The notes beneath the pieces were generated by a model, which worked only from the letters and a program-made list of their open reading frames with translations, was not told the origin of the DNA and made no database searches. A stretch of 39,575 nt of DNA from a virus: IMG/VR virus record IMGVR_UViG_3300035661_004723, positions 1 to 39,575 of that record; one strand, written 5' to 3'. Every line of letters starts with the position of its first letter. Position 1 is the first letter of the stretch. Below are positions 5,848 through 20,755 of the stretch, in pieces. The position numbers and the translations under genes are program-made.

Positions 5848-6399
5848 TCAAGCCGCCGCCCAATCGATTGCCGCCAGGATGACGTCGATCTCTGCCGCCG
5901 ATTGCGCGGCCGTGACATCCCTCTTGGCTTTCAACCGGGCACGCTCGATGCGGGCACCGATGACTTGCCACTGGCCAAAGGATTGCAGCACCGTTGCCGC
6001 GACCTCGGCAGCACTGGCAGCGGTTATGCCAACCTCGCCATAGATCATCGGGTACTTTGTTGCATCAGGAGCCACATCGGCCTGAAAGCCTTGTGCCTGG
6101 TGGACCTTCTCCTGATAGGTCATCTCCTGGCCAGCCGTGACCGTTATGTACTTCCCGCGCTCGGCACCGGCCGCATTGTCGATGGTCGTGATCGCGCGTT
6201 CTTTCAGGTAGTCGAGCGGCGGTGCGGCCGGCGTCGGCATTGAGAAGGAATTGGTCACCGCGATATAGGTCGCGCCAATGTTGGCGGTATCGGACTGCAT
6301 AAGGAATTCGCCCTCGGGCAATTCCAAGGTTTGCTCGGCGTCCAGCTCGATGGCGTTGAGGACCAGATGGCTGACGTCGGAAACGATTACGTATCTCAT
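5848..6399 (-). CDS. Probable tail fibre assembly protein
   Basis: 183-aa protein. The start is set at the ATG at 6399 (MRYVIVSDVSH), 11 nt after the upstream fibre gene, with AGAGG seven bases before it; the longer open frame upstream lies inside the fibre gene. The N-terminal part is short and beta-like (LELPEGEFLMQSD). From DYLKERAITTIDNAAGAERGKYIT on it is helical, with a YLKERAI...YQEKVHQAQGF pattern often seen in C-terminal parts of fibre assembly and fibre-tip proteins. It directly follows a Mu-type fibre gene, as fibre chaperones do. A 72-nt gap with no obvious signal follows it. Confidence 0.65.
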   Translation of the reverse strand: MRYVIVSDVSHLVLNAIELDAEQTLELPEGEFLMQSDTANIGATYIAVTNSFSMPTPAAPPLDYLKERAITTIDNAAGAERGKYITVTAGQEMTYQEKVHQAQGFQADVAPDATKYPMIYGEVGITAASAAEVAATVLQSFGQWQVIGARIERARLKAKRDVTAAQSAAEIDVILAAIDWAAA

Positions 6400-6409
6400 G
6401 ATTGACCTC

Positions 6410-7336
6410 TTAGCCGTCGTATTCTTCAAGGATGATGAAGCCGTCAGAGCCAGCGGCACCCGCAGCTGTCGATGACGCATTGTTGTAGGCAGCCTGACCA
6501 CCTGTCGCGCCTGCGGCCGAATTCGCATCTGGCGACTGTCCGTTGATGGCGGTCGCCTGTGGCGTCAAGCGGCTGGGTGGCCCGCCATAGCCGAAGGGGC
6601 CAACGCTGGCGGCACCGGGGGTCGTGGTAAGAATTGTCGGGGCACCGAATGTATAGGTGGCATTCATGCCGGGATTGCCTTTGAGATTGATGTCGCCATT
6701 GAGGCCTATGCCACCGTCACCCGTCGCGGTTCCCCAAGTCGATCCATCAACCCTGGCGCCACCCTTGCCACCGGTCGCACTCAGATACGGTGTCGTACCG
6801 AAGCTTGTATTGCCGCCGTCGCCGCCATCGGTTGGCATCGCGGTGCCCGCGATGCCCTTGGCACCAATGATGTAGCTCTCACTGGCCAGAAGTGCAGAGA
6901 CGAGAATGCTCTTCATTGCCGTGCCACCGGCACCAGAGTTGCCACCTTGTGGTGCCGCGCTTCCGATGCCCTTCGCGCCACCGGAGCCGCCGGACGCGCC
7001 ATAGCACCAGACGATGATGCGCTTCGCGTTTGCCAGCAGATCAGTTGCCTTGACCAATGTCCCGCTGGTGATCAGCTTGCGCCGACGCAGCAGCTTGCCT
7101 GTCGTGACGCCGCCTATCATTGACTGAATGGCGGTGAGCAGCTGGTCACGGTGCGATGGATCGAGAACCACGCCCGTTGACTCGATGACGTTTGCGATCT
7201 CTTCCTGCACGTTGTTGAACCAAAGAGCGTTCAACTGCGTTGATGGTGTTCCAGATACCGGGTCGCCGTCCTTGAAGCCGGGTTTCCCGGCGCCGAATAG
7301 GTCAACGGCCTTCGTTGTCGTATCGATGCGCTTCAT
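6410..7336 (-). CDS. Tail fibre / collar-type protein, glycine-rich
   Basis: 308-aa fibre. The N-terminal 80 residues (MKRIDTTTKAVDLFGAGKPGF ... LNALWFNNVQEEIANVIE) form the conserved baseplate-attachment region found in Mu-like and P2-like fibres. The C-terminal 200 residues are strongly Gly/Ala-rich (WCYGASGGSGGAKGIGSAAPQ), ending ADGFIILEEYDG-like in GSDGFIILEEYDG, a type of tip that forms glycine-rich trimeric bundles. It follows the gp48-like gene directly, the place of the fibre gene in Mu. Two unrelated fibre types in one phage suggest either two fibres or a fibre with separate shaft components. Confidence 0.85.
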   Translation of the reverse strand: MKRIDTTTKAVDLFGAGKPGFKDGDPVSGTPSTQLNALWFNNVQEEIANVIESTGVVLDPSHRDQLLTAIQSMIGGVTTGKLLRRRKLITSGTLVKATDLLANAKRIIVWCYGASGGSGGAKGIGSAAPQGGNSGAGGTAMKSILVSALLASESYIIGAKGIAGTAMPTDGGDGGNTSFGTTPYLSATGGKGGARVDGSTWGTATGDGGIGLNGDINLKGNPGMNATYTFGAPTILTTTPGAASVGPFGYGGPPSRLTPQATAINGQSPDANSAAGATGGQAAYNNASSTAAGAAGSDGFIILEEYDG

Positions 7337-7342
7337 GCCGTT

Positions 7343-7927
7343 CTAAACTCCATAAGCAAAAATGACGGTGGTATGTGCTGGCTTCAATTGGTTGATGACG
7401 CATTCAAGAACGGTGTCACCCCAAAATCGCAGGTACTCGGAGCAACCGGAATTCGCGGTGAAGTCGCGCTCTAGCGTCGTCTCATGAATGTTGAGGCGCC
7501 AGGCGTAGCACCATGGATCAGTGAACAAGATATCGGTGCAGGACGAGTCGGCCGTGTAAGGCGTGAACTCGGTAATGGTCGGATTGACATAGCCAAGGGC
7601 GGTCGCGATGCCGATGAAATAGGCGCGGCTCTGGTCACCAACCGATGTCAATTTCTGGACCAAGCGCGCGCGCCTGGCTGTGAAGCTGTCGAGTGGACCG
7701 GTGCAGGGGTCTGGCAGGCCGGCGACATTCTCCCAATCGGTGAGCATTTCACCGGTTGTGCGTGGGTCGGCTTCCTCAATCAGATCATCGCCACGGCCGT
7801 CGATCCGCGCCAACTCGGATGCCGGCATGTCCAGCGTCTGGGAAATCACCGTGTTGCTGTCACGCGGCCAGACATCCCCGGTCGGCAGCAGTGCCGTCAG
7901 CTGATCGAGATAGGCCGCCTGGTTCAT
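7343..7927 (-). CDS. Mu gp48-like tail/baseplate protein (DUF2313)
   Basis: 194-aa protein that closes the baseplate wedge genes. The start at 7927 (MNQAAYLDQLTALLPTGDVWPRD) overlaps the stop of the gp47-like gene by four bases. Family features seen are the N-terminal LTALLPTGDVW, the central DWENVAGLPDPCTG, and a C-terminal ECVINQLKPAHTTVIFAYG. In Mu, gp48 (YmfQ/DUF2313 family) acts with gp47 in the baseplate and precedes the fibres, as here. A longer open frame upstream exists but lies entirely inside the neighbouring gene. Confidence 0.9.
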   Translation of the reverse strand: MNQAAYLDQLTALLPTGDVWPRDSNTVISQTLDMPASELARIDGRGDDLIEEADPRTTGEMLTDWENVAGLPDPCTGPLDSFTARRARLVQKLTSVGDQSRAYFIGIATALGYVNPTITEFTPYTADSSCTDILFTDPWCYAWRLNIHETTLERDFTANSGCSEYLRFWGDTVLECVINQLKPAHTTVIFAYGV

Positions 7928-11280: not shown

Positions 11281-12517
11281 TAATCAGGACCTCCAAGGGC
11301 CGGCCGCCTGAAACGAAGCCGGGATGGCGGACGCGGTTACGCCGACGCAGATCCTCTTGCCGGTCAAACAAGGTGGTCAGATTGTCGCCATCGATCCGGT
11401 AGGCAATGAGTGGTGCCGGCAGCGTGACGGGCGGCAAATAGGTTGCGAGTTTTGGCAGCGGCGCCGCGCGAATGCCGACATCCTTGACGGTCGCGGCGCG
11501 GAGATCCGTGGCCGTACGCCAGGTGTTGTCCCATTTGGCATTGCCGGCGGTGTCGGCCGCGTCGTCGAGGTCGCCGGCCACCTTGTCCCGCCAGGCGATG
11601 GCCTGGTCGCGACTGTCCCAGCCCGCGACTGATCCGGTGCGGGCCGCTTCGATCGCGGACGTCACCTGCGCCAGGGCAATCAAGCTTTGCTGATTGACGG
11701 CCGCGCGCTTCCATGACGGTGTGACACCGGCTGGTGGATCTTCCAGACTGCGCAAGCCGGACGGATCGGCCAACGAAATAAGGCTGTTGCTTGCTTGCAG
11801 CGTCGGCTTGGTCCGCACGCCTTTGAACGCGAACAAGTCGGCAATCTGAGTGCCCAGCGAAACCGTGTCTTGCAAGCCGGCTGGCCCGATGGTCGATAAG
11901 GCCGTGGCGGTCGATGCGAGGTTGCCTTGTGACAGATCGGACGTAAGGCCGGCGCCGCGCATGGTGCCGAGCGTCAAGCCCGTCATCGACTTGATGACGC
12001 GGATGGCGTGTTCAACGACGAAGTCCTGGACGTCATCAACCGTGAAATTCTGCGAGAAGTCCCTGATTGCCGCATCGCGCGCGGCCGTGGCACTGCGATC
12101 GACCGTGGCGGCCGTGTCGATCTGGGTGACGGGCGACTGTGGACCACCCGCCAGTTGGAAGGTGACAGAGATCCGCGCAACGCGGCCCTCGCGGCTGCTT
12201 GTCTTTGTATGGACCTCGCCGACCACCACAACGTCCAACTCGCCATACCATGGATGCACCAGGCGGCCGGTGCTGGTATCGTCGAGCGCCGTCTCAAAGC
12301 GCGTGACCTGGTCGTTGAGGTCATCGCCAATCAGGATGGCCTCTATGGCGAAGGTGCGTGGCAGCTTGCCGATGAACTCGTGGCTGACGTCATCGCGGAG
12401 CGGGAATTCATGCGTGATCGTTCGCGGGCCAAATGCCTTATCTGAACTGTCAACATCGAATGGCACGCCCCGGAAGCTGGCCGGTCGCAGGGTATCAAGC
12501 CATGACTTACCGGTCAT
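11273..12517 (-). CDS. Mu gpN/gp43-like tail protein (DNA circulation N-terminal domain)
   Basis: 414-aa protein. Residues about 7-95 (LDTLRPASFRGVPFDVDSSDK ... HEFPLRDD, VHPWYGELDVVV) match the so-called DNA circularization N-terminal domain of Mu gpN. In Mu this protein forms part of the tail/baseplate hub connection; the older circularization name is historical. The C-terminal part ends with a helix-rich region (LFDRQEDLRRRNRVRHPGFVSG), typical of the family. It overlaps the tape measure stop by 11 bases and follows it in Mu order. Confidence 0.9.
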   Translation of the reverse strand: MTGKSWLDTLRPASFRGVPFDVDSSDKAFGPRTITHEFPLRDDVSHEFIGKLPRTFAIEAILIGDDLNDQVTRFETALDDTSTGRLVHPWYGELDVVVVGEVHTKTSSREGRVARISVTFQLAGGPQSPVTQIDTAATVDRSATAARDAAIRDFSQNFTVDDVQDFVVEHAIRVIKSMTGLTLGTMRGAGLTSDLSQGNLASTATALSTIGPAGLQDTVSLGTQIADLFAFKGVRTKPTLQASNSLISLADPSGLRSLEDPPAGVTPSWKRAAVNQQSLIALAQVTSAIEAARTGSVAGWDSRDQAIAWRDKVAGDLDDAADTAGNAKWDNTWRTATDLRAATVKDVGIRAAPLPKLATYLPPVTLPAPLIAYRIDGDNLTTLFDRQEDLRRRNRVRHPGFVSGGRPLEVLING

Positions 12518-14177
12518 ACATCACCCGGCCGTTATCGACGCGATAGTCCATGCGGTTATCGTCGGATCGCGCCTTAACTTGGACACGATTATCCATGACA
12601 TCCACTCTGATGGTGCCACTGGCGTCGAGCCGCGCCACGCCTGATGCGGTACGGACGTTAGCGGCGCCAAGTGATCCGGCACCCCTTCCGTGCGCGACGG
12701 CCGGCGCGGCAGAACCTCCACCGGTGATCGAGCCGAATACTGACTTGCCAAGGTCAATCGCCGACTGGAGCTTGGTGATAATTGGTGTGATGAAATCAGA
12801 AATCGCCCGGAAGGCTTTCAAGATGCCATCGACGAATGACTTTTCCAGCCATTCAACGAAGCCGTTAAATGTGTCTTTAATCCCCGACCAAAGCTTGTCG
12901 AACCATGGACCAATCTTGTCCCAATTGGCATAGATGAGGTAGACGGCGGCCGCCAGGGCGGCAATGGCCGTGATCACCAGGCCAATAGGGTTGGCCGCGA
13001 GTGCGATGTTGAAAGCCTCAACGATGCCGATGCCAAAGCGCAAGGCGCTAAAGAATGCTGTGGCAGTCTCGATGAGTGGCGCCAGGGCAAAGGCGGCCAG
13101 TCGCACAGTCGTCGCGGCAATGGCCTTTCCAAAGCCACCAAAGGCCAAGGTCAATTGTGCCAAGGCGATCAGCAGCTTCCCGCCCGCGACGACAGCTATC
13201 GCCGCCAGCGCAGCATTGACCGGGCCGAGCCACTGCACCAGGCGTTGGAGGATGTTGATTAGCGGTGTGAGCTTCTGATAGAGATCCTGCACCGCGCTGG
13301 TGGCCCGATCGACAACGCCGGGTATTGCTTCGATAAAGTCACTGACGCGGGTGGCGATGAGTTCACGATTGGCCGAGATCCAATCCGTCATGCGGCCGAT
13401 GAGCGGTGTCAACACCGGCAGCAGTTTGGTCGCAATGGCATTCCGCACGCCATATGCCGAGGTGACTAGCCGATCGAGGCTGTCATTGAAATCGCCGGCC
13501 GCGCCAACTGCTTCGTCGGACAGGACGGCACCGAACCGGTGCGCCTCGTCCTTCCAAGCGGCGAGGCCCTTGGCGCCACCGTTCATCATCTGGATGAGTT
13601 TGACACCGGCATCACCAAAGATTGCCATTGCGAGCGCCGATTTCTTGGCACCGTCCGGCATCTTTGCAAACTTGTCGGCGATCTCCGCGAAGATTTGGTC
13701 GGTGGGCTTCAGCTTACCATTGGTGTCCTTGAGCGTCACGCCAAGGCGCCGGAAGTTGGTCGCCATGGTCTGGTTCCCGGTCGCGGCATCGACGACCTGC
13801 TTGTTGAGAACACGCAGGCCGTCCGCCAATTCTTCCGGGCTTGAGCCGTTCATCTTCGCGGCGTAACCCAGTTCCTGGAAAGACGTCGCCGATAGCCCGA
13901 TCTTTTGCGACATGTCATTGGCTGCGTCGCCTGCATCTGCCGCACTCTTGATCAATGCGAATAGGCCGCCGCCAATCACCCCGACGGCGGCGGTCACCCG
14001 CATGGCGGCCTCCCGAGCTTCCTTTGCGACGTTGCCAAAGGCGCTCCCCAGCTTCTGGCCGGCAGCGATGATCTTGCCAAATCCCATCTCGCTGTTGAGG
14101 CGACCAACTCGCCGTGCGATCTCATTCACCGGCTTGGTGAGACGATCAACAGCTTCGAGGATGACACTGAGTTTCAC
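12507..14177 (-). CDS. Tail tape measure protein (Mu gp42-like)
   Basis: 556-aa tape measure that sets tail length. Conserved N-terminal block KSAADAGDAANDMSQKIGLSATSFQELGYAAKMNG is diagnostic for the family. Several hydrophobic segments lie at about 330-430 (VAGGKLLIALAQLTLAF, GLVITAIAALAAAVYLIYA), as in other tape measures that cross the host membrane. It starts with GTG at 14177, three bases after the -1-frame stop of the chaperone fusion, so its translation is probably linked to the end of that frame. It is short for the family, implying a short tail. Confidence 0.93.
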   Translation of the reverse strand: MKLSVILEAVDRLTKPVNEIARRVGRLNSEMGFGKIIAAGQKLGSAFGNVAKEAREAAMRVTAAVGVIGGGLFALIKSAADAGDAANDMSQKIGLSATSFQELGYAAKMNGSSPEELADGLRVLNKQVVDAATGNQTMATNFRRLGVTLKDTNGKLKPTDQIFAEIADKFAKMPDGAKKSALAMAIFGDAGVKLIQMMNGGAKGLAAWKDEAHRFGAVLSDEAVGAAGDFNDSLDRLVTSAYGVRNAIATKLLPVLTPLIGRMTDWISANRELIATRVSDFIEAIPGVVDRATSAVQDLYQKLTPLINILQRLVQWLGPVNAALAAIAVVAGGKLLIALAQLTLAFGGFGKAIAATTVRLAAFALAPLIETATAFFSALRFGIGIVEAFNIALAANPIGLVITAIAALAAAVYLIYANWDKIGPWFDKLWSGIKDTFNGFVEWLEKSFVDGILKAFRAISDFITPIITKLQSAIDLGKSVFGSITGGGSAAPAVAHGRGAGSLGAANVRTASGVARLDASGTIRVDVMDNRVQVKARSDDNRMDYRVDNGRVMYDR

Positions 14178-14179
14178 GG

Positions 14180-14595
14180 CTACATGCTCTCTCTAAGGCG
14201 ACGCTGCCAGTTCCTTGCTCGATCGAACCAGAACGTCAGGCGCTCTGGTCCCCAGGTGTCGATGTCGGGGGGATATCCGAAGCTTCCTGCGATGACTTCA
14301 AGGCACTCGTCCCAGTCCGCAGGGAAGCTGGCAAAAAACTTTCGACGGCTTCCATGACTGCCATGCCGTCCTCAAGGCAAAGGTCATCGACTTCCTTGAG
14401 TGACAAGCGCGTCGCCCTTGACGTCAGGTGGCGAAGCAAGGTGCCGGGGTTATCCTTGCCGCCGGCACCATCGATCGCGTTGAGCAGATCGCCGGTCTTC
14501 AGCCGGCGAACCATCACCTTGTCGACTTTGTCCAGGACCTCGTCGCCGTCCTTGGCCTTGCGTTCCAACGGCTCGGTTAAGTTGACGATCTTCAT
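14180..14595 (-). CDS. Tail assembly chaperone, -1 frameshift fusion product
   Basis: Predicted 138-aa fusion: 88 residues in frame 0, then a -1 shift at T TTT TTG (14338-14332) and 50 more codons to TAG at 14182-14180. The extension reads ASFPADWDECLEVIAGSFG, then YPPDIDTWGPERLTFWFDRA, then RNWQRRLRESM. It has dense Trp, aromatic and charged residues and no start codon of its own near its beginning. This matches the lambda G/GT arrangement of a short and a long chaperone sharing an N-terminus. The shift itself is inferred; the slippery site and the open -1 frame are seen directly. Confidence 0.82.
14236..14595 (-). CDS. Tail assembly chaperone, zero-frame product (Mu gp41-like)
   Basis: 119-aa protein between the tail tube and tape measure genes, the invariant place of tail assembly chaperones. 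It begins MKIVNLTEPLERKAKDGDEVLDKVDKVMVRRL, a typical opening of the Mu-type gp41 family. These proteins coat the tape measure while the tail is built. Codons 86-88 (AGT TTT TTG) contain a slippery heptamer; the last 31 residues past it (PASLRTGTSALKSSQ ...) look like poorly conserved read-through, whereas the -1 frame encodes a well-formed Trp-rich domain. The start overlaps the tube gene stop by four bases. Confidence 0.88.
   Translation of the reverse strand: MKIVNLTEPLERKAKDGDEVLDKVDKVMVRRLKTGDLLNAIDGAGGKDNPGTLLRHLTSRATRLSLKEVDDLCLEDGMAVMEAVESFLPASLRTGTSALKSSQEASDIPPTSTPGDQSA
14332..14338 (-). other. Slippery heptamer for programmed -1 frameshift
   Basis: T TTT TTG in exact zero-frame phase within the tail chaperone gene, fitting the X XXY YYZ rule. 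Both tRNAs can re-pair after a one-base slip (TTT to TTT, TTG to TTT). The -1 frame is then open for 50 codons up to three bases before the tape measure start. Confidence 0.82.
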
Positions 14596-14966
14596 GCCGC
14601 CATCTCCTGCGCCGGATCGCCAGCAAAGTTGAGCGAGACGTTGCCGCCGGCACCGTCCTTCATCGTGGGCGGTTCGGTGATGAAGGCGTTAGAAATGACG
14701 AAGGATTGCCCGGTATCCGCTTCAAAGATGATGGTGGCACCAGTCACGTTGCGGAGATCCGCTAGCGACATGCCGGTCATCAAGGCTGTCTCGCAAGCCA
14801 AGGTTCCCGGCGCCGTCTCTTCCGCATAGCCGACCTTTTTGCCAACGATGACAGTGTTCCGCTTTACGCCGCCGACATCCAGGGTTGCCCCGGCTGCGGT
14901 CTCCCATACTTGCCCGTCAACGCGGATCGTCGCGCGGCCAAGGAACTTATTGCCCGTGATTGCCAT
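14592..14966 (-). CDS. Tail tube protein (Mu gpM-like)
   Basis: 124-aa tube subunit, forming the inner rigid tube of the contractile tail. The sequence MAITGNKFLGRATIRVDGQVWETAAGATLDVGGVKR, with a central MTGMSLADLRNVTGATIIFEADTGQSFVI and the C-terminal FAGDPAQEM, follows the Mu tail tube family closely in length and pattern. It follows the sheath gene after a 13-nt spacer holding GGAGA. It is coupled to the chaperone gene by a four-base overlap. Confidence 0.93.
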   Translation of the reverse strand: MAITGNKFLGRATIRVDGQVWETAAGATLDVGGVKRNTVIVGKKVGYAEETAPGTLACETALMTGMSLADLRNVTGATIIFEADTGQSFVISNAFITEPPTMKDGAGGNVSLNFAGDPAQEMAA

Positions 14967-14979
14967 TTAACGTTTCTCC

Positions 14980-16446
14980 TCAGAGACGGAACTGAATGCG
15001 ACCCGCGAAGATGCGGAGCTGGTTGACGATGTTCGGCGGCACCAGCGCGTTGACCCGGTTCGGGTCGTTGGGGTCTATCTCGACGATGATATCGTTCTTG
15101 AATTGGTCGATATCTTCGGCCAGCCCCTGATCTTCCCAGTTCTTGAACCGCGCGATGATTTCGGCCCGCAAGGTCTTCGGTGTCACCACCGCCTGGCCGC
15201 GTGAGAAGTTGGTCCCGTCGCGCGCCAGCTTGTGACGCGGATACTTCAAGGCAATGAAGTTGCGGAGGTCGTAGCGCAACAAGGCCAGCGTCCGCATGGT
15301 TTCGACATCAAGGAAGCTGGCATCGGCCGCCAGGAATGCATTGGTGCGGTACATGGTGATCGATCGCTCGATGACCACATTGCCGCCGCCATCCACACGC
15401 CAGGTGGCAATGCCGGAGGACAGAAGGATATTGCGCTCCTGCAAGGTGAAGCGATCGACCACGGCCGGCGGCAGCATGCCGGGCAGCGTCAACGTCTGGA
15501 TCGGCCGCGCCGGATCGATCGATAGATAATAGGCCGCGACGCCGGCAAGGCAGGCGGCCCATTCCCATGGCGGGGTTGGCGAGTTCTTGGCGCCGATCAT
15601 GGTCACATGCGACGAGTTGCGCGTCAGGCCAAGCGTCGTCAGGGTCGAAACGGTGCCAGTAGCAGCGGTCCAAACATGACCGTCGATCATCTTCAATGGA
15701 CCGAAATTCGTGTCCATCTTGGTTTCAATCGCGGTCAGGTTAGTGGCATCAGTATAAGGGTTGACGATGTCGGTGTACCAGGCATCGCCAATCAGATCGA
15801 GGACGGGCTGTACCAGCGGGTTGCCGGTGCCAGCGGACATGCCGACAATTGCCAAGGCCAGGCCTGCCGGTAGCGCTTCCCCGATATTGTAGGAATGCCG
15901 GAGGTCGATGTAGTTGCCGCATTCGCCCTTGTGACGCGCCGTGATGGTGACGACGCCGGCAGCGGCCGAAGCGGTCACCGGCAAGGATGTCAACGCGGTG
16001 ACGGCCGCCACGACGGCCGTCGCGATCTGCGCCACGGTCTGACCGGCGGTAATCGCCACTTGGACCAGGCGCCCGGCGATATAGAGGTTGAGCGTGCCAT
16101 TGGCAGTCGGCGCGCCGGTAAAGGTCAGTGTGCCGGTTGCAAACGCACCGGCCGCGTTGTCATCGAGCGCGATGGCCCACGTCTCGGTGTAGTTGTTGGC
16201 CTTGATCAGGGCAGCCAGCATATGGCTCAGCTGCGAACCGATACCGAAATAGGCGGTGGCCTGGTCGGCGCTGGTGATCAGCTGCGGCGTCAAAGCCTGC
16301 ACGGTGCCGGCGGCCAGACGCTGGCCAATGACCAGGATCTTGGTCGGCAGACCGCTGATACCGGAGATGGCGCGCGTGTTGTCGATTTCGACATAGACGC
16401 CGGGAACGCGGATCGAAACTGGAATTGAATTGAAGGACAATGCCAT
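14980..16446 (-). CDS. Tail sheath protein (Mu gpL-like)
   Basis: 488-aa contractile sheath subunit. The N-terminus MALSFNSIPVSIRVPGVYVEIDNTRA is the classic Mu sheath opening. The middle carries the variable outer domain with many Ala/Thr residues. The C-terminal third (YPRHKLARDGTNFSRGQAVVTP, near 415-435, and NRVNALVPPNIVNQLRIFAGRIQFRL) is the conserved polymerisation region. It identifies the phage as myovirus-like. The gene is preceded by the small DUF2635 gene and followed by the tube, exactly as in Mu. Confidence 0.96.
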   Translation of the reverse strand: MALSFNSIPVSIRVPGVYVEIDNTRAISGISGLPTKILVIGQRLAAGTVQALTPQLITSADQATAYFGIGSQLSHMLAALIKANNYTETWAIALDDNAAGAFATGTLTFTGAPTANGTLNLYIAGRLVQVAITAGQTVAQIATAVVAAVTALTSLPVTASAAAGVVTITARHKGECGNYIDLRHSYNIGEALPAGLALAIVGMSAGTGNPLVQPVLDLIGDAWYTDIVNPYTDATNLTAIETKMDTNFGPLKMIDGHVWTAATGTVSTLTTLGLTRNSSHVTMIGAKNSPTPPWEWAACLAGVAAYYLSIDPARPIQTLTLPGMLPPAVVDRFTLQERNILLSSGIATWRVDGGGNVVIERSITMYRTNAFLAADASFLDVETMRTLALLRYDLRNFIALKYPRHKLARDGTNFSRGQAVVTPKTLRAEIIARFKNWEDQGLAEDIDQFKNDIIVEIDPNDPNRVNALVPPNIVNQLRIFAGRIQFRL

Positions 16447-18454: not shown

Positions 18455-19891
18455 TTAAGGCACAACCGCCTTTTGCAGACCCCGGAAGTCGATCACGTTG
18501 CCGCCATAGATGTGACGAATCTTGTAAGTGATCACGTCATTGGTGAAGAACGAACCATTGTCAGGCTGGTCCTGGACAAAGATCGACGGCTCTTCCTCGC
18601 CATCCAGAAAGCCAATTTCAAGGCTGGGCAGATCCTTTGGATCGGCGCTGAGGACGAAATCGTTTGTGTCGGTCCAATAGAAGACCGGGACGATCGTCGG
18701 AACCAACGACTGGATGAATGTCTTATCCAGGTTGGTCGACCGAACGAACATGTTGCGGAAGGTTTCTTCGAGATCAAGCGGGCAATGGATGTATGCGGGG
18801 CCAATGCTCTGGACCTCGCCGCTGCTCTTCTGCGGCTGCTTGAGCATCGCCAGACGCATGGCGGCAAACGAAGTCGCGGAAGCGGCAGCGACGCTCAGAT
18901 TGTTATGAGTGGCGTGGAACAGAGCCACACCATCATAAATCACGGGGTTGGTGACGACGAGGTCGTAAACGAACTGACACAAGGTACGCTTGGCCGAGCG
19001 CGATAAGCCGGTCGGAATGCGACGGATAGCTCCGACATCATCGTTCTTGATCATTTCAAGTGTGACGGTTTCGGTGCCGCCACGCTTGCTAACGGCATAA
19101 GTCGCCTTTTCATCGGTCGGACTTGTCAACGCAGTGTATGGTGCTGACTGATTGACGATCGGCAGATTGCCGTAGCCGCCATAGCGGGTGCGCTCTTGAG
19201 TGCGGAAGTCGTTGATCGGCACAGGATCGCCAGCCAGCGTCCGCCAGGCGTCCAAGTTCGACTGGACATTGTAGTCAGCCAACATGCGCCGCGTTATCGA
19301 GTTGCCCAGCACATTGGGGAATGATGTCGTGTCGAGGGATTCGGTGAGGCGGGTTGAGCGATCAACACGGCCAGTCACCTGGCGGTCACCGGTCATCGTG
19401 ACATAGCACTCTCGGAACGAACGGGCGTGACGATGGTCCTTGTGCTGTGGATCAAAAAATGCGTCCAGCATGTCGTCGTGCTTTTCGCTCTGGTCCTTGA
19501 CACCTTCGATGAAGGTGCCTTCGCCAAGATCGGCGACAGAGCCCCCGAGACCGACCAAGGTCTGTGACAAGTAAGAGGCTTCCTGCTTGATCGCTTCGAC
19601 AACCGCCGCCTCGGTGAATTTGGCATTGCCGCTGAACTGCTGAATGATCTTCTGCTTGGCTGCATTCGGCAACTTCGAGCCGTTGACCAGGTCGCGCATG
19701 CGGAACTGGTTCCCCACGGCTTCCGTCAGGTTGGCATTCGTGGCAGTGGGGTCGACACTGTTGGTGGTTGCTTGGAGGGCGGTGGTCAACACAGTCTGCA
19801 ATTCAGCATCGGTGATCGTGGTTAGATCCTTGCCCTGCAACAGGGCTGGATTGGCAGTGTTGATCAGGTTGATCAGTTGAGCGCGGTCCAT
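18455..19891 (-). CDS. Nested in-frame scaffold-capsid product (internal start)
   Basis: Predicted 478-aa product from an internal ATG at 19891 (MDRAQLINLINTANPALLQ), in frame with the fusion gene. The ATG is preceded by a strong Shine-Dalgarno, AGGAG at 19901-19897 with a 5-nt spacer, in the middle of a coding region. It starts exactly where the protease domain ends and the scaffold-like segment begins. This would let the phage make many capsid-scaffold chains and few protease-bearing ones, like lambda C/Nu3. Translation from it is inferred. Confidence 0.72.
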   Translation of the reverse strand: MDRAQLINLINTANPALLQGKDLTTITDAELQTVLTTALQATTNSVDPTATNANLTEAVGNQFRMRDLVNGSKLPNAAKQKIIQQFSGNAKFTEAAVVEAIKQEASYLSQTLVGLGGSVADLGEGTFIEGVKDQSEKHDDMLDAFFDPQHKDHRHARSFRECYVTMTGDRQVTGRVDRSTRLTESLDTTSFPNVLGNSITRRMLADYNVQSNLDAWRTLAGDPVPINDFRTQERTRYGGYGNLPIVNQSAPYTALTSPTDEKATYAVSKRGGTETVTLEMIKNDDVGAIRRIPTGLSRSAKRTLCQFVYDLVVTNPVIYDGVALFHATHNNLSVAAASATSFAAMRLAMLKQPQKSSGEVQSIGPAYIHCPLDLEETFRNMFVRSTNLDKTFIQSLVPTIVPVFYWTDTNDFVLSADPKDLPSLEIGFLDGEEEPSIFVQDQPDNGSFFTNDVITYKIRHIYGGNVIDFRGLQKAVVP

Positions 19892-20755
19892 GAATTCTCC
19901 TGTAACAACGGCTTCAACGAATGAAATAATCCCGCCGCCGGCACCTGGCTCGACGATGAGATCGACGGAATTGACCTTGATGAAGGCCTCGGCAATGCGA
20001 TTGCCTTTCGTGCCGCTAGCAGTGCCGACGACATCGACCGAGAGGCCGAATAGGTGTGACATGTGCTTTCCGATGGCTTCCCGCAGACGGACGGCGATCG
20101 GATCGTCGTCGCCGCAGATCAAGGTCATCACGGCCTGGATCTCGCCGCTATCAGCCGTGGCACCCTCAACGAAGCGCGGCTTGGTGAGGCCGCCAATGAG
20201 GTTGCGGACATCCTTGCCTTGGCCAAGTGTGTGCTCGCTGTCTGACTTGCTGAAGACCCGCACGCCCTCGAACATGGGTGCGGCTTCGCGCAACAGGGCA
20301 TCGGGATAGTAGTTGCCGTTTAGTGAACGGCCGGCACGAATGACGCGGACCAGATAAGAATTGGTCGGCAGGCCGGTGGCATCAGCAACAGCCTCAATCA
20401 ACACGGATGTGCTGGCGACGGGTGTCGCTGCCACGGGGGCGGGATCAGCAACATCGACGGGAACGAAGGCGCGGACGACTTCGCTGGGTGTGCCGAACGA
20501 GATAGTGAGATCATCGGCCACCGCATAGGGATAGCGGTAGCTCTTGCCATCCATGTCGACAATGACGCTGTCGGCATAGAGTGCGGAAACATAGGGCCAT
20601 GGGTCGCAATCATCGCCCGTGAGCTTCAGCAGCTCGCGGAGAGCACCTTGCACCTGGTCACGCAAGGCGATCAGGTCGACCTCGACGGCTTCCAGCAAGC
20701 GGGCCGGCGTCAGACCGGCCGTGCCGAGCAATTGCAGACGCCGGCCAAGCTTCAT
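18455..20755 (-). CDS. Prohead protease-scaffold-major capsid fusion protein
   Basis: 766-aa polyprotein. Residues 1-110 form a small N-terminal domain with SVIVDMDGKSYRYPYAVADD; then an Ala/Pro linker (about 103-118); then a protease-like domain (about 128-285) with the pattern SYLVRVIRAGRSLNGNYYP, candidate catalytic H185 (SDSEHT) and S239 (FGLSVD). From M289 comes a helical, Asn/Gln/Thr-rich scaffold-like region to about 420, then the HK97-fold-like capsid part (about 440-766, with PNVLGNSITRRMLADYN and HATHNNLSVAAAS). Such fusions are annotated in other phages. The catalytic residues are my inference. ATG at 20755 overlaps the stop of the upstream small gene. Confidence 0.88.
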   Translation of the reverse strand: MKLGRRLQLLGTAGLTPARLLEAVEVDLIALRDQVQGALRELLKLTGDDCDPWPYVSALYADSVIVDMDGKSYRYPYAVADDLTISFGTPSEVVRAFVPVDVADPAPVAATPVASTSVLIEAVADATGLPTNSYLVRVIRAGRSLNGNYYPDALLREAAPMFEGVRVFSKSDSEHTLGQGKDVRNLIGGLTKPRFVEGATADSGEIQAVMTLICGDDDPIAVRLREAIGKHMSHLFGLSVDVVGTASGTKGNRIAEAFIKVNSVDLIVEPGAGGGIISFVEAVVTGEFMDRAQLINLINTANPALLQGKDLTTITDAELQTVLTTALQATTNSVDPTATNANLTEAVGNQFRMRDLVNGSKLPNAAKQKIIQQFSGNAKFTEAAVVEAIKQEASYLSQTLVGLGGSVADLGEGTFIEGVKDQSEKHDDMLDAFFDPQHKDHRHARSFRECYVTMTGDRQVTGRVDRSTRLTESLDTTSFPNVLGNSITRRMLADYNVQSNLDAWRTLAGDPVPINDFRTQERTRYGGYGNLPIVNQSAPYTALTSPTDEKATYAVSKRGGTETVTLEMIKNDDVGAIRRIPTGLSRSAKRTLCQFVYDLVVTNPVIYDGVALFHATHNNLSVAAASATSFAAMRLAMLKQPQKSSGEVQSIGPAYIHCPLDLEETFRNMFVRSTNLDKTFIQSLVPTIVPVFYWTDTNDFVLSADPKDLPSLEIGFLDGEEEPSIFVQDQPDNGSFFTNDVITYKIRHIYGGNVIDFRGLQKAVVP
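19897..19901 (-). promoter_or_regulatory. Internal Shine-Dalgarno (AGGAG) in the capsid fusion gene
   Basis: AGGAG lies five bases before the in-frame ATG at 19891, at the protease/scaffold border. It decides the second start in this gene. Confidence 0.75.

Follow-up and report, generated by a model that had tools for sequence, protein, structure and literature searches.

The question raised by this locus is whether a short gene just upstream of a tape measure gene yields a second, longer product by a programmed -1 ribosomal frameshift, and whether such a shift would be unusual in a Mu-type tail. The window, that is, the whole stretch of 39,575 nucleotides that was analysed (IMG/VR record IMGVR_UViG_3300035661_004723), carries a Mu-type contractile tail module on its minus strand, in the order sheath, tail tube, chaperone, tape measure, DNA circularisation protein N, gpP, gp45 and Baseplate J. 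The tail sheath protein (14980..16446, minus strand) is of the Mu gpL type (phrog_165, E 4e-196; 42% identity to Mu gpL), and the tail tube protein (14592..14966, minus strand) is of the Mu gpM type (PF10618, E 2.3e-30). The tape measure protein (12507..14177, minus strand), which has a GTG start, matches PHROG tape measure families with a best E of 4e-67. The chaperone gene is placed between the tail tube and tape measure genes.

The chaperone, assigned to the gp41/E type by Pfam and gene position, is encoded in the zero frame (14236..14595, minus strand) from an ATG at 14595 to a TGA at 14238-14236, giving a protein of 119 aa. Residues 5-88 match Pfam PF10109 Phage_TAC_7 (E, 41 or 14) with 21 bits and an E of 3.5e-4, against a cut-off of 25 that is passed by the chaperones of the relatives L009 and L024. 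The chaperones of these two relatives are about twice as long, at 204 aa (L009:7870-8484) and 191 aa (L024:5887-6462), and each has two Phage_TAC_7 stretches, a tandem-duplicated domain upstream of the shift site.

Towards its 3' end, the chaperone zero frame contains an in-phase X XXY YYZ heptamer, TTTTTTG (14332..14338, minus strand), the first T of which is codon position 3, such that codons 86-88 read AGT TTT TTG (phase 2). A -1 slip at this site would generate a product of 138 aa (88 + 50), predicted to be MKIVNL...VESFL followed by ASFPADWDECLEVIAGSFGYPPDIDTWGPERLTFWFDRARNWQRRLRESM. The extension, 50 codons and a TAG (14180..14332, minus strand), would be the C-terminal domain of the fusion and is recognised by a profile of relatives' extensions. 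Its open frame passes the zero-frame stop and runs to the tape measure start, with 2 bases (14179-14178) between the TAG at 14182-14180 and the GTG at 14177. The zero frame itself continues for 31 codons past the slip site (14239..14331, minus strand) as a dual-coded tail that overlaps the extension. Between its upstream stop and its end, the -1 frame has no ATG, GTG or TTG except an ATG as its final codon, so the extension cannot start alone and reinitiation is unlikely. The preliminary description had located the phase-correct heptamer and both frames correctly, and had recognised that the extension lacks a start of its own, but had set the gap before the tape measure GTG at 3 bases.

Judged from the sequence, this tail assembly chaperone gene almost certainly undergoes programmed -1 ribosomal frameshifting of the standard kind. 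The majority of ribosomes would make the 119-aa chaperone, and a minority would slip back by one base on U UUU UUG, with the Phe-tRNA on UUU in the P site and the Leu-tRNA on UUG in the A site, to produce the 138-aa fusion with a C-terminal domain of the P2 E' type. If the lambda gpG/gpGT tail chaperone mechanism (PMC5009743) is a guide, the tape measure protein may be coated by the short form, with the long form recruiting the tail tube protein; we infer these assembly roles, and likewise the slip rate.

Searches with the chaperone itself retrieved few relatives. With the 119-aa protein as query, a search for related loci was empty for genomes and, in IMG/VR, retrieved nothing beyond the same virus or one near it, and tblastn and blastn searches of phages with the chaperone gene gave no match. 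The sheath protein was therefore used to collect a wider set of loci from annotated phages, IMG/VR contigs and prokaryotic genomes. This set is made up of the 80 top-scoring loci from each collection together with selected phages and is not a random sample; the counts are of loci, some of them closely related (the near relative was entered under two handles, L001 and L006). The chaperone region could be read in 177 loci with a sheath of the Mu gpL type, and 105 of these carry a -1 heptamer in phase, followed by an open -1 frame. The open -1 frame of these 105 loci reaches near the tape measure start, usually with 145-200 nt from heptamer to stop. T6N or A6N sites, nearly all T6N, are present in 80 of them; by type, the -1 heptamers are TTTTTTG at 38 loci, TTTTTTC at 27, TTTTTTT at 9 and TTTTTTA at 6, and the remainder are GGGTTTN, CCCTTTN, GGGAAAN, AAAAAAG and AAATTTT. 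A Mu-type -2 site is found in 49 of the 177 loci (GGGGGCG in 39 and AGGGGCG in 10), and 23 fit neither rule. Eight loci outside both rules (L070, L078, L079, L153, L158, L162, L164 and L184) share CTG, TTG or GTG followed by GGG GAA, hence G GGG GAA, directly before a conserved -1 frame that reads ...GWSRAEILxLPxxEF...; G GGG GAA is a candidate non-canonical -1 site in these eight. In a further IMG/VR relative, L007, the frame of the sheath gene (6001-7476) is interrupted by one in-frame stop at about 6268-6270.

The T runs of the relatives bear on how a fusion would be made. If RNA polymerase slipped on the T6 run, then edited mRNAs would encode the fusion, and a homopolymer run does exist at the site, but the phase of the run would be indifferent. 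Among the non-redundant chaperone genes of the relatives, however, 75 of 75 runs of at least six T lie in the T TTT TTN phase, starting at codon position 3, as expected for tandem tRNA slippage; the run is six long in 67 and seven in 8, and none is longer. In addition, the GGGTTTN, CCCTTTN and GGGAAAN sites of other relatives are slippery for ribosomes yet contain no long run. Restriction to one phase and to a length of at most seven favours ribosomal over polymerase slippage, and the latter is very improbable at this site.

An error of sequencing or assembly that split a single-frame gene in the T run, a region type prone to such errors, is harder still to credit. The same T6G is repeated in L003, which is identical to the window over the chaperone stretch, and in L001, an IMG/VR relative from another sample with 81% DNA identity over the region, where heptamer and -1 frame are kept and the zero-frame stop stands in the same position. 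Moreover, the two-frame layout recurs in the 105 loci, isolate genomes among them. Substitutions between the window and L001 in the overlap, which are few, favour neither frame in a codon-position test.

Chance expectation was estimated by synonymous codon resampling of the chaperone gene with 20,000 draws. The -1 frame is open across the overlap codons in 42% of draws, which makes an open frame weak evidence when taken alone, and any in-phase X XXY YYZ heptamer arises within the overlap in 36%. An in-phase T6/A6 arises there in 0.9%, and the 12 structural genes of the window, with 3,934 in-phase positions, contain three X XXY YYZ heptamers, of which a single one, the chaperone site, is T6/A6. 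The layout of site and frame in a single genome is suggestive rather than proof; the T6 site is not weak evidence, and the evidence from homologues is decisive. A profile was built from 98 non-redundant -1 extensions of relatives, with the window and L001 left out. The profile matches the -1 extension of the window with 38.3 bits (E 6.8e-14 at Z=1, one sequence), compared with 6.1 bits for the best of 200 shuffles; it gave no match to the zero-frame tail of the window and -1.6 bits with its -2 frame. Pfam Phage_P2_GpE (PF06528) is above cut-off in the extensions of L132 (E 2.9e-14), L130 (8.8e-10) and L061 (2.3e-7). The extensions of the window and L001 by themselves gave no Phage_P2_GpE match in the Pfam search, where that of the window matched no family at all, and are linked to that family only through the 98-extension profile. 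A fortuitously open -1 frame, with the 119-aa product alone of importance, would be compatible with the 42% of resamplings, but has a negligible probability given homology to 98 independent extensions, with a score that no shuffle approached, and a T6/A6 site expected so rarely.

Strong support for the programmed -1 shift comes from the conservation in L001, the 38.3-bit profile match, the single-phase T6+ runs and the P2-type extensions. The preliminary description had proposed this shift, had suggested that homologues be aligned for a conserved heptamer and -1 frame, and had held that a -1 frame not conserved in homologues would speak against it. Site, phase, frame, conservation and homology of the extension all agree with the proposal: the heptamer and frame are kept in L001, -1 sites are common in the wider set, and the match of independent -1 extensions to that of the window means that the frame is conserved.

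The layout had been likened to lambda G/GT, and the likeness holds for gene layout and presumed role; lambda is a siphophage, and the window encodes a contractile tail module. The E/E+E' system of phage P2 is the more exact parallel. In P2, a -1 shift at TTTTTTG makes E+E' (PMC3091744). The window and P2 have the identical heptamer, the -1 direction and a Phage_TAC_7-type chaperone ahead of the tape measure in common, and the extensions of relatives match Phage_P2_GpE, the E' part of the P2 -1 product. In contrast to P2, the site of the window belongs to a tail module of the Mu gpL type and its zero frame extends 31 codons beyond. The same module order and kind of site as in the window are found, with a homologous extension, in Bordetella PBb001 (TTTTTTG), SfV (TTTTTTC), ST64B (TTTTTTT) and YPCBV-1 (TTTTTTG); the PBb001 extension, for example, reads ARFPADWPDAL... 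and that of the window ASFPADWDECL.... These -1 phages with Mu-type sheaths differ from the window in their diverged sequence and in the last base of the heptamer, which varies; the dual-coded tail of PBb001 is also shorter, as its zero frame stops about 10 codons past the site.

Mu gp41/gp41' occupies an equivalent gene position, and the -1 and -2 extension profiles are related to each other (hhalign 92.7%, E 4e-7), but the shift seen in the Mu data is -2 at GGGGGCG, whereas that predicted for the window is -1 at TTTTTTG. No GGGGCG is present in the overlap of the window, and the -2 extension profile does not match its -2 frame. The expectation that a Mu-type tail with a -1 site would represent a notable variant fails, with 105 of the 177 loci in the -1 class and 49 in the -2 class. 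Therefore, the -2 shift of Mu is the minority mode among the sampled loci with a Mu-type sheath, which corrects a likely misconception; -1 sites are present in SfV, ST64B, EPP-1, AH07, YeP1, BZS1, PG1, BgVeeders33, YPCBV-1 and Bordetella PBb001. The KS10 paper, in summarising earlier literature, gives -1 as the general shift and -2 as that of Mu, and it describes no shift site in KS10 itself (PMC2628397). The arrangement in the window is real and conserved, yet ordinary, because most relatives and phage P2 have an equal arrangement. It is one more well-supported instance of a rule that is widespread in tail assembly, and annotation of these phages should include the fusion product beside the short chaperone.

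On a sheath tree of 173 proteins (FastTree, with local supports only), the -1/-2 label requires at least 9 changes. The clade of the window is mostly -1, with one -2 member, L115 (Roseospirillum), and sister pairs of opposite mode are L132 (-1) with L150 (-2) and L094 (-1) with L090 (-2). The odds lean slightly towards repeated switching between -1 and -2 ((G/A)GGGGCG) in the chaperone of phages with gpL-type sheaths, with the delivered extension staying homologous. The mixed pattern on the tree could also have arisen through swapping of modules between the sheath gene and the chaperone gene.

Candidate stimulatory elements were also considered. RNA structure downstream of the site is not beyond chance when compared to shuffles in the window (z -0.95), L001 (-0.74) or PBb001 (+0.59), and a downstream stem-loop was rejected as stimulator. 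The P2 site is likewise reported to lack downstream structure (PMC3091744). SD-like 4-mers in the chaperone genes of relatives peak 15-14 nt upstream of the heptamer, and one lies at -18 to -5 in 32 of 100 non-redundant -1 loci, compared with 22.3 +/- 2.8 expected from synonymous resampling; this is suggestive of an internal Shine-Dalgarno as stimulator across the group. Stimulators of the Shine-Dalgarno type are known at further -1 sites in bacteria, that of dnaX among them. For the window itself, an internal Shine-Dalgarno was rejected as stimulator, as it has only a partial GGAAG at the SD-like position and L001 lacks it.

Outside the tail module, the capsid gene of the window (18455-20755, minus strand) is long, encoding 766 aa. 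The Phage_capsid_4 match is limited to residues 473-762, and the N-terminal part may therefore represent a protease or scaffold fused to the capsid protein, a possibility also suggested by the head protein of 668 aa in Bordetella PBb001.
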